Shown here piece after piece: positions 5,166 to 57,117 of a DNA stretch of 64,000 nucleotides (positions are counted from its first letter, which is position 1; each line of letters starts with the position of its first letter). Position numbers and translations under genes: made by a program. The stretch is from Notolepis coatsorum. Taxonomy: Eukaryota > Chordata > Actinopteri > Aulopiformes > Paralepididae. The notes under the pieces were generated by a model. The model saw only the letters and a program-made list of their open reading frames with translations. It was not told the DNA's origin and did not search any database. The stretch is taken from the NCBI GenBank assembly GCA_963971535.1, contig OZ020592.1, positions 59,171,824-59,235,823 on the forward strand. Reading direction: 5' to 3'.

Positions 5166-5380
5166 CTATATGTCTTATCTCGATTACATTGTCTTTACCA
5201 GAGCTGAGTCTTATTATATATTACATTGTCTTTACCAGAGCTGAGTCATATTCTAGATGACATTGTCCTTACCAGAGCTGATTCATTATTCTAGATTACA
5301 TTGTCCTTACCAGAGCTGATTCATTATTCTAGATTACATTGTCCTTACCAGAGCTGAATCCTATTTTAATTTAGATGACA
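5166..5380 (-). repeat. splice-donor-derived minisatellite, about 5 copies
   Basis: Units of about 43 bp each contain ACATTGTC(C/T)TTACCAGAGCTG, which on the minus strand is CAGCTCTG followed by GTAAGGACAATGT. That equals the last exon bases and donor of the semaphorin exon at 6373-6489, where the same phrase occurs at 6362-6380. The array lies in the intron immediately after that donor and has been split from it by the TIR element at 5381-6363. Confidence 0.8.
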
Positions 5381-6363
5381 TTGGGCCTCATGCATGAAGC
5401 GATATAAGAACAGATTTTGTTCTTAACTAGCATTTCCTCTTACTTTGTTCTTACCTGGGATTCAGCAAAGTTTTTTTATTGTTGCTTTTTTCTCAGGCAA
5501 GAACAAATTATAAGAGTGGTCGAGAGCACTCTTACCAAAATAAAAACTCTTACCCAGATGAGAAACATTTCAAAAAGCCTACATTCACAATAATAATAAT
5601 ACATAAGATTTATATAGCGCTTTTCCTAATTCTCAAAGACACTTTACAAAACAAACAATATAATACAATACAGTTTTAGTAGATCAAATAAAAAAAAATA
5701 TATAAAATGGGTGAGAGAGGAAGGAGTTCATGGGTTGAAAGCAAACCATTGGTCAATTGCCCCCAAATACAGTACCCCCAAATACGACTTTATAAACCCA
5801 TGCAGAACTTTTCAATAATTATTATTATTATAACTTATTACATGGCGTTTTCACAATCGCCGAAATGCTTGCTTGTGATTGGTCAATAGCGTGCGTCAGA
5901 GGTCCGTTATCACACAATAACGGACCTCTGCCAAGCAATAATGACCGCTGTGCGCAGCTGTTCGCAATGAAGCCCACTACAACACTGTATCAGTGCTGCT
6001 CAGCATATGCACAGCTGCACTCAGTCATCAGTGCAATCAGACCACAGACCTGCCTACTGCCGATAATAATAATCACTTTATTTGGGCTGACAGAGCCACA
6101 GAACAACTGCGTTTGCATTTTATCTCGTCTTGTCGATGGTGTACAATGAATTAGGTATATTTGTTAGTAAGTTAGCCATGTAATAAGCGGGATAATGTAT
6201 AGCTATACTCGATCATTGTCGCAAAATAATTGACCTTCACAGATTTTGACGTTAAGAACGGCTTGATGAACGTGGCGGTGGCTTTTCTTATTGTTCTCTT
6301 AACAGACAGGTAAGCAAGAATATAAGAAAAAATAATAAGAGAGTATTGTTGAATGAGGCCCAA
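5381..6363. mobile_element. 983-bp TIR element (non-autonomous DNA transposon)
   Basis: The left end TTGGGCCTCATGCATGAA and right end (reverse complement TTGGGCCTCATTCAACAA) form inverted repeats with 11 perfect bases, plus CA after a mismatch. The insertion splits one unit of the splice-donor minisatellite: 'gaca' on the left and 'tgtcctta' on the right rejoin to the unit 'gacattgtcctta' apart from terminal bases, so the exact target duplication is ambiguous. No transposase is present. The interior holds a GTCCGTTAT-type hairpin near 5898-5930. Confidence 0.65.
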
Positions 6364-6372
6364 TGTCCTTAC

Positions 6373-52308
<45,936 letters not shown>

Positions 52309-52653
52309 CTGCGAGAACAGGGAGGGAACCGTAGAGATGTGTTAGAGTTCACTGCGAGAACAGGGAGGGAACCGTAGAGATGTGTTAGAGTTTACTGCGA
52401 GAACAGGGAGGGAACCGTAGAGATGTGTTAGAGTTCACTGCGAGAACAGGGAGGGAACCGTACAGATGTGTTAGAGGTCACTGCGAGAACAGGGAGGGAA
52501 CCGTACAGATGTGTTAGAGTTCACTGCGAGAACAGGGAGGGAACCGTACAGATGTGTTAGAGTTCACTGCGAGAACAGGGAGGGAACCGTAGAGATGTGT
52601 TAGAGTTCACTGCGAGAACAGGGAGGGAACCGTACAGATGTGTTAGAGTTCAC
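52309..52653 (-). repeat. 43-bp minisatellite ending in the exon A acceptor
   Basis: Eight units. On the minus strand each reads TCTAACACATCTCTACGG, then TTCCCTCCCTGTTCTCGCAG. The array abuts the exon exactly, so the true acceptor is the last of eight near-identical polypyrimidine-AG units. Confidence 0.95.
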
Positions 52654-54987: not shown

Positions 54988-55617
<630 letters not shown>

Positions 55618-57117
55618 CAGGTCCACGGAGGACGCCATAGCCCATGTGCTGCACACAGCAGCATCACACCTGGACAAGAGGCATGGGAACTATGTGAGAA
55701 TGCTGTTCATCGACTACAGCTCAGCATTCAATACCATAGTCCCCTCCAAACTCATAGCCAAGCTCAGGGACCTGGGCTTGAACTATGACCTCTGCCAGTG
55801 GGTCTTGGACTTCCTGACGGGCAGACCGCAGGTGGTAAGAGCAGGCAACTGCACCTCCTCATCCATGACGCTCAACATAGGGGCCCCCCAGGGCTGTGTT
55901 CTGAGCCCCCTCCTCTACTCCCTGTACACACATGACTGCGTGGCACAGCGGAACAACAACACAATCATCAAATTTGCTGATGACACAGTAGTGGTGGGCC
56001 TGATCTCTGCCAACGACGAGAGGGCCTACCTGGAAGAGGTAGAGAATCTGTCACAGTGGTGTCAGGAGAACTGCCTCTCCCTGAACGTCAGCAAAACAAA
56101 AGAGATGATTGTGGACTTCAGGAGGTTGGGGGTCAAGGACTACAGCCCCCTCAGCATCGACGGGGCACCGGTTGAGAGAGTGAACAGTTTCAAGTACCTC
56201 AGAGCCCACATATCCGAGGACTTGACATGGACCACACACATTGACAGTGTTGTGAAGAAGGCACGACAACGCCTCTACTTCCTCAGGCGCCTAAGGAAGT
56301 TCCAAGTCAGTCAGAAGATCCTTAAGAACTTCTACTCATGTACAATAGAGAGCATCCTGACTGGCAACATCACCTCCTGGTTTGGGAATAGCACTGCACA
56401 AGACCGTAGCAGACTACAAAGAGTGACACGTTCAGCCGAACGCACAATTGGAGGGGGGCTTCCCACCCTCCAGAACATTTACAACAAGCGGTGCAGGGGG
56501 AAGGCTAAGAGAATCATCAAGGACTCCAGCCACCCGAACAACTGCCTCTTTGAACTGCTGCGGTCAGGCAAGCGATACCGGAGTCTTAAGGCGAGCACAG
56601 AAAGACTCAGAAGAAGCTTCTATCCCCAGGCCATCAGGCTGCTCAACGAACAATAAACACTATGCAACAACCATCAAATGCACACAGCACACACACCCAC
56701 ACACTCACTTAAACAAACAACACACTGCAGCACCCACTCTCCACACTTTAGATCACCTAAACACACTTTACACTTTATATTTATTGGTAAATGATTTGCA
56801 CTACAACTCGTACACCTTACTGTAAATCGTACCTCATCCCATTTCTGCTCTGCACTATATAGTATTGTATATTAGTACATTGCATAGTATATTGTATATT
56901 GTATGGTAACTCAGTTACTTCTATTCTGCATCGAACATTGTACATAATATGTCTATACTGAACACTGTGACCTCTATTTTTACTTCTATTTTACATGCTA
57001 TTTTATTTTATTTCATACTTATCTTGTCTAGCACAGTCTCTGGAGCGTAACAGTAAGAAGCATTTTGTATACAAGTATTCTGTACTTCTGTATGACAACT
57101 ATTAAAGAAACTTGAAA
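55618..57117 (+). mobile_element. Rex1/CR1-like LINE, 5'-truncated
   Basis: The open frame runs to 56656. RT motifs [37 protein letters not shown] and catalytic [14 protein letters not shown] are followed by the CR1-type C terminus (NRS-like [30 protein letters not shown]). A 450-bp 3' untranslated region ends in 'attaaagaaacttgaaactt'. No stop interrupts the RT, so it is a fairly young truncated insertion. Its tail is the source sequence for 2010-2092 and 54560-54660. Confidence 0.9.

Follow-up and report, generated by a model that had tools for sequence, protein, structure and literature searches.

Minisatellites spanning splice junctions in a semaphorin gene and in other genes of Notolepis coatsorum

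The window, i.e. the 64-kb stretch of DNA analysed here (positions 59171824-59235823 in a genome assembly of 3.42 Gb in 4787 contigs), contains a semaphorin gene in which several exons continue into tandem arrays whose unit includes the splice site. This locus raises the question of whether exon-intron borders are preferred starting points for tandem duplication, as the original prediction proposed, or whether ordinary minisatellites were in some places founded across an exon edge.

Arrays at the junctions of the semaphorin gene

The gene lies on the minus strand, as do all exons and junction arrays described below, and comprises ten exons (A-J) with 20 visible junctions. The exon model was obtained by tblastn with a SEMA4D probe combined with splice consensus. 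Semaphorin-4D was the top match among solved structures, which suggests a class-4-like semaphorin. Exons A-H form a single open frame when joined; exons I (6734-6957) and J (6373-6489) each contain one single-base frame break, which may reflect gene decay or an assembly error. No exons beyond J were found within the 64-kb window.

Four junctions are flush with an array, as originally described. On the intron side of the acceptor of exon A (52160-52308), a 43-bp unit is repeated in 8.0 copies (52309-52653), each ending in the acceptor AG. The final ~50 bp of exon D (37467-37560) belong to the end unit of an array of ~19 copies of 59 bp, which extends from the exon across the donor into the intron (36392-37517). 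Exon E (27855-27968) carries junction arrays at both ends: ~18.5 copies of a 53-bp unit run from the intron across the acceptor into the exon (27934-28916), the unit including the acceptor and ~35 bp of exon E, and ~27 copies of a 20-bp unit begin at the donor GT (27308-27855). Read from the sequence, the 20-bp units abut as ...CAGTAG/GTATGT..., an acceptor-donor junction resembling a recursive splice site. Exons B (50516-50578), C (38695-38793), G (19065-19240) and H (8473-8611) are without junction arrays.

The arrays proposed for donors J and F fared differently. The 38-bp unit of the array assigned to donor J (5178-5365, 4.9 copies) does contain the J donor, which is thus repeated in five further copies, but the array does not adjoin the exon and lies 1 kb away from it. 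The gap is filled by an element of ~990 bp with 14-15-bp terminal inverted repeats (approximately 5377-6367) that sits within the first unit; since it interrupts this unit, the array is probably older than the insertion. At the donor of exon F (26599-26753), TRF calls no array, and the degenerate repeat found there lacks the donor itself: intron positions +9 to +29 recur with 20 of 21 matches ~138 bp deeper in the intron (26431-26452). This match beat all 500 shuffles, and a second match was weaker. The six of about nineteen junctions counted originally therefore become five of 20 (acceptors A and E, donors D, E and J) plus one degenerate trace. With head-to-tail units of 43, 59, 53, 20 and 38 bp in 8-27 copies (4.9 at donor J), the five arrays fall under the definition of minisatellites.

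Other minisatellites keep clear of the junctions, as had been noted for those near 10.1, 10.9 and 21.5 kb: the nearest junction is 1.5-2.4 kb away from the arrays at 10103-10631, 11049-11186 and 21523-21965, and 15 other minisatellites in the gene span touch none. Their density predicts that 0.21 of 20 junctions should fall inside a unit, compared with five observed (P(>=5) = 1.5e-6, a post hoc value, the gene having been picked for the pattern). Long simple repeats adjoin the acceptors of exons I and F at a distance of 2-7 bp, namely, as read on the minus strand, a CT-rich repeat of 1.2 kb (6960-8178) and ~240 bp of TG (26760-26997); these microsatellites were left out of the minisatellite counts. 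Judged by eye from the list of open reading frames, the window also contains retrotransposon-like reverse-transcriptase and gag/pol frames at 12641-18329 (minus strand) and at 24591-25745, 41689-45841 and 55598-56656 (plus strand). An array at 38889-39003 is built from a ~30-bp unit type, GGTTAACCCTTTCACTGCCACACTACAGAA, which also forms arrays at ten of the loci sampled below (L019, L023, L044, L051, L059, L060, L062, L063, L064 and L066). Arrays of this type at unrelated loci seem to represent a dispersed minisatellite family that is moving or being copied around.

Junction arrays in a sample of other genes

Further exons were collected from the same genome by Pfam domain searches for semaphorin, tyrosine phosphatase and phosphodiesterase domains, i.e. 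independently of repeats. We read 178 loci (58 semaphorin, 90 phosphatase and 30 phosphodiesterase), a part of the matches listed (25 and 106 for semaphorin, 152 for phosphatase, 70 for phosphodiesterase), which gave 179 exon records. Excluded were the window gene (L001, L024), 13 loci judged by eye to be retrocopy-like or intron-poor (L039-L043, L045, L046, L048, L050, L052, L053, L057, L099), local copies (L004, L005, L021, L027, L061, among which L021 and L027 are less alike than assumed) and loci with similar cores (L087, L100, L107, L169), leaving 155 exons with 310 junctions. Outside the window gene, L061 was the only dropped locus with a junction-spanning array; at the dropped locus L169 an array begins 3 bp past the exon core, as at L143. 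In nine of the excluded phosphatase loci (L039-L043, L048, L052, L053, L057), the domain lies in long frames of up to 598 aa across several expected exons, which suggests that they are retrocopies.

Spanning junctions were counted by eye and not blind. The count drew on TRF arrays that had a period of at least 10, were not made of simple units and came within 15 bp of the matched exon core. An array close by did not qualify as spanning at nine loci (L007, L028, L030, L071, L083, L089, L117, L130, L143), nor did a second array at L168, and some sampled exon cores may end elsewhere than at a real junction. On this basis, 19 of the 310 junctions are contained in an array unit or directly adjoin one (loose count): ten donors (L032, L072, L082, L086, L120, L134, L154, L155, L163, L177) and nine acceptors (L033, L034, L060, L088, L121, L138, L140, L168, L172). 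The strict count, for which the unit must take in 6 bp or more to either side of the junction, is 14 and omits four junctions with few exon bases in the unit (L033, L082, L088, L177) and the ambiguous L134. By family, the arrays occupy 7 of 104 semaphorin, 7 of 148 phosphatase and 5 of 58 phosphodiesterase junctions, and those of conserved phosphatase and phosphodiesterase exons are among them. Junction arrays are thus not confined to the window gene, which is an extreme case: its five of 20 is high even against the sampled rate of 6.1% (P = 0.006, post hoc).

A difference in copy number was observed at one pair of loci outside the window. L060 and L061, ~177 kb apart, show 9 mismatches in 3087 aligned bases and a few small gaps, and differ by exactly one 91-bp unit of the junction array, which comprises a phosphatase acceptor and ~45 exon bases; they also differ by one 42-bp unit of another array. 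The pair may be two alleles that the assembler retained separately, or may stem from a recent duplication.

Origin of the arrays and the duplicated splice sites

The expected number of spanning arrays per junction was calculated by multiplying the unit length by the number of array founders per base in non-duplicated flank. This is a fair measure because, whenever a duplication spans a junction, the true edge remains in place as the terminal unit. It also follows that the exon being the first or last unit, a layout which had been pointed out and which is indeed seen, is automatic geometry. The non-duplicated flank of the sample holds 130 arrays in 166 kb. With the average flank as null, the junction-enrichment check that had been proposed gave 19 observed against 6.6 expected for the loose count (P = 4.8e-5) and 14 against 4.2 for the strict count (P = 1.1e-4). 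When the null was built from either the 3-kb or the 650-bp loci only, the ratios ranged from 2.75 to 4.4, and with semaphorins removed 12 of 206 junctions were spanned against 5.0 expected (P = 0.005).

The resulting ~3-fold excess over average flank agrees with exon borders being preferred starting points, but arrays that span no junction are also denser toward exons. Their exon-facing edges number 0.53 per kb at a distance of 800-1400 bp from the exon (31 arrays), 1.02 per kb at 50-100 bp (5 arrays) and 1.59 per kb at 5-50 bp (7 arrays). If the densities close to exons replace the flank average (98 arrays in 141.6 kb) in the calculation, the expectation rises by our own arithmetic to ~10-15, and the excess shrinks to 1.3-1.9-fold. 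A profile of the terminal units gave a near-to-far ratio of 2.65 (95% CI 1.47-4.48), an exaggerated contrast, since far-off arrays are lost at short loci. In terms of bases, and for the first 129 exons, arrays cover 7-8% at 0-20 bp from the exon and, beyond 100 bp, 13-21% in 13 of 14 bins and 7% in the remaining one; this poorer coverage beside the exon than in the intron interior would follow from array growth being directed solely into the intron. In the sample, exon surroundings hold arrays ~2-3 times more often than the average flank. Such a general rise in density toward exons could explain much of the junction excess, and a hotspot specific to the junction is therefore not established.

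The anatomy of the units bears on where the duplications broke. The original prediction regarded the units as built from the splice site itself; instead, the junction may lie anywhere within the unit. The exon share lies between 0.06 and 0.86. After correction of the fractions by eye, its distribution is compatible with a uniform one (18 units, KS P = 0.61), from which it follows that the duplication breakpoints were not at the splice site. The uncorrected automatic shares gave P = 0.043 in the same comparison, and the automatic estimates of exon bases are unreliable where copies differ by indels (L072, L172, L082 and window donor D). Unit lengths were divisible by three in 6 of 19 cases. Copying from mature mRNA was rejected as a source, as the units hold intron sequence beside exon sequence, and so were GC-rich exons as a cause, the GC content of the array units being 0.412 compared with 0.430 in the flank and 0.578 in exons. 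Five sampled phosphodiesterase exons, which we take from their sequence to be of PDE4 type, show recurrence at one junction: three (L138, L140, L172) carry an array at the same acceptor, with differing units, and two (L137, L139) do not (Fisher P = 0.0018, uncorrected for the number of junction classes). The exon-side limit of the array is nearly identical in L138 and L172. This recurrence hints at a proneness that would be specific to the sequence.

We consider it probable that the arrays are ordinary minisatellites whose founding tandem duplication spanned an exon edge. By geometry, a duplication across a donor or acceptor keeps the true edge, together with the rest of the exon, at the end of the array and places the new copies on the intron side. 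Selection on the exon would then pin this end unit, while the array gains or loses whole units within the intron, as the one-unit difference at the L060/L061 locus suggests. In a genome this rich in minisatellites, with many other arrays in the flanks, several percent of the sampled exon edges carry one. The occurrence of spanning units in three unrelated families, the uniform position of the junction within them, the gradual rise of array edges toward exons and the retention of decoy dinucleotides at about the level of other unit dinucleotides all agree with such a passive origin. The significant excess over average flank does not, however, and plain random seeding would have to be supplemented by a bias or by arrays lasting longer near exons; the near-exon excess could stem from arrays persisting longer in old, transposon-poor DNA or from a mild mutational bias. 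The array-bearing acceptor shared by three of five PDE4-type exons and the departure of the uncorrected fractions from uniformity also count against the passive account.

That exon borders are instead true hotspots, at which RNA-DNA hybrids, splicing-linked breaks, a nucleosome edge or a step in composition trigger duplication, appears rather doubtful to us. The ~3-fold excess, its persistence without semaphorins and the PDE4-type recurrence would all fit, but edge density climbs gradually over hundreds of bp and reaches 1.59 per kb at 5-50 bp for arrays that span nothing, the breakpoints show no concentration at the splice site, and units of 0.41 GC beside exons of 0.58 and flank of 0.43 argue against exon composition as the driver. 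For the window gene, we think it unlikely that the five arrays accumulated through relaxed selection on the junctions of a decaying pseudogene. The frame breaks in exons I and J and the high count relative to the sample (P = 0.006, post hoc) point in this direction; exons A-H, on the other hand, form one open, well-conserved frame, arrays also occur at conserved phosphatase and phosphodiesterase junctions, the breaks may be assembly errors, and pseudogene decay would explain the cluster only and not the phenomenon. Duplication of the arrays by the assembler has very little credibility, even though the assembly is large and contains near-duplicate local copies such as L060 and L061: units differ from each other and form higher-order periods, an insertion breaks up one of the arrays, and the near-identical loci share their array and differ by one exact unit.

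The remaining explanation, that selection maintains the copies because additional splice sites protect against mutation or adjust splicing, seems to us highly improbable. Its attraction is that 158 of 177 aligned copies retain the splice dinucleotide GT or AG: 66 of 75 in the five window arrays and 92 of 102 in 18 others. Elsewhere in the units, dinucleotides are retained at almost the same rate, with averages of 81% and 87%, so that the decoys behave as expected of passive copies. Within the window, AG is kept in 7 of 7 copies at acceptor A and 18 of 18 at acceptor E, and GT in 17 of 19 at donor D, 19 of 26 at donor E and 5 of 5 at donor J. Losses are concentrated at window donor E (7 of 26), L088 (6 of 11, AG remaining in five) and L120, where all three copies have GC in place of GT. 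With only 6 of 19 units a multiple of three, splicing at a neighbouring copy would in most cases change the reading frame, which again speaks against selection for spare sites. A general silencing of the decoys was rejected, most copies retaining GT or AG. At the DNA level, the claim that many decoy splice sites are tolerated is supported, and to judge from the sequence, the real site may be accompanied by dozens of spare ones that look intact. The copy spliced is most probably the exon-proximal one, which would be the only site bordering a complete exon under exon definition, and occasionally the next one.

Extrapolated from the 5-6% found in the sample, several percent of all junctions, i.e. 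thousands genome-wide, might be the anchor points of unstable minisatellites in which the splice site is multiplied, with exon edges as their preferred birthplaces; we put this forward as a tentative possibility. If it were true, the choice of splice site would have to depend on position and disregard up to dozens of near-identical alternatives, and splicing throughout the genome could be modulated by array length, as it is at human ABCA7.

Relation to known repeats at splice junctions

In the open-licence literature, we found no genome-wide report of junction-spanning minisatellites or of their presence at several percent of junctions. Such arrays are known singly, and their prevalence in this fish looks new. 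Junction arrays at several percent would provide a natural laboratory for how the spliceosome chooses a site, for exon definition in the presence of decoys and for shifts of exon boundaries; arrays that go unrecognised could also misplace exon ends in annotation and RNA mapping.

The known systems, as far as the parts of the reports used here describe them, share different features with the fish arrays. Introns composed of tandem repeats occur in an avian GC-rich gene, with units that are not junction-spanning in the part of the report considered (PMC6792250). In intron 1 of gilthead seabream myostatin-2, a block of ~150 bp is present once or twice at the 5' end and is polymorphic between individuals; like the donor arrays here it is an intron-start repeat, and it adds predicted splice sites, but it reaches two copies at most, these are 73% alike, and the available part of the report does not place the donor within the unit (PMC3045353). 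In human segmental duplications, internal tandem repeats occur at exon-intron boundaries with units of ~30 bp on average, and their copy number differs between near-identical copies (PMC2812944), as it does here between L060 and L061. There, however, exonic repeats turn into new introns in recent paralogues (27 intron modifications after manual inspection), whereas in the fish conserved junctions are multiplied within introns (PMC2812944).

The closest likeness is with the VNTR in intron 18 of human ABCA7, a 25-bp repeat flush with the exon, the first two bases of which are the donor GT (PMC5954066). Transcripts of this gene have been seen to retain a single unit and to skip the following exon; skipping increased with the length of the repeat, retention of one unit did not, and the VNTR is tied to Alzheimer risk (PMC5954066). 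Window donor E has the same layout, its array lying on the intron side and starting at the donor GT. More broadly, a real splice site within the unit, flush with the exon and repeated on the intron side, is found at acceptors A and E and at donors D and E, at donor J with the insertion in between, and not at donor F. ABCA7 is one human locus with population and RNA data (PMC5954066), while the present evidence is DNA from one assembly with 19 of 310 sampled junctions. The fish differs from ABCA7 in that several junctions of one gene are affected, acceptors as well as donors, and in that a unit often includes up to ~50 exon bases.
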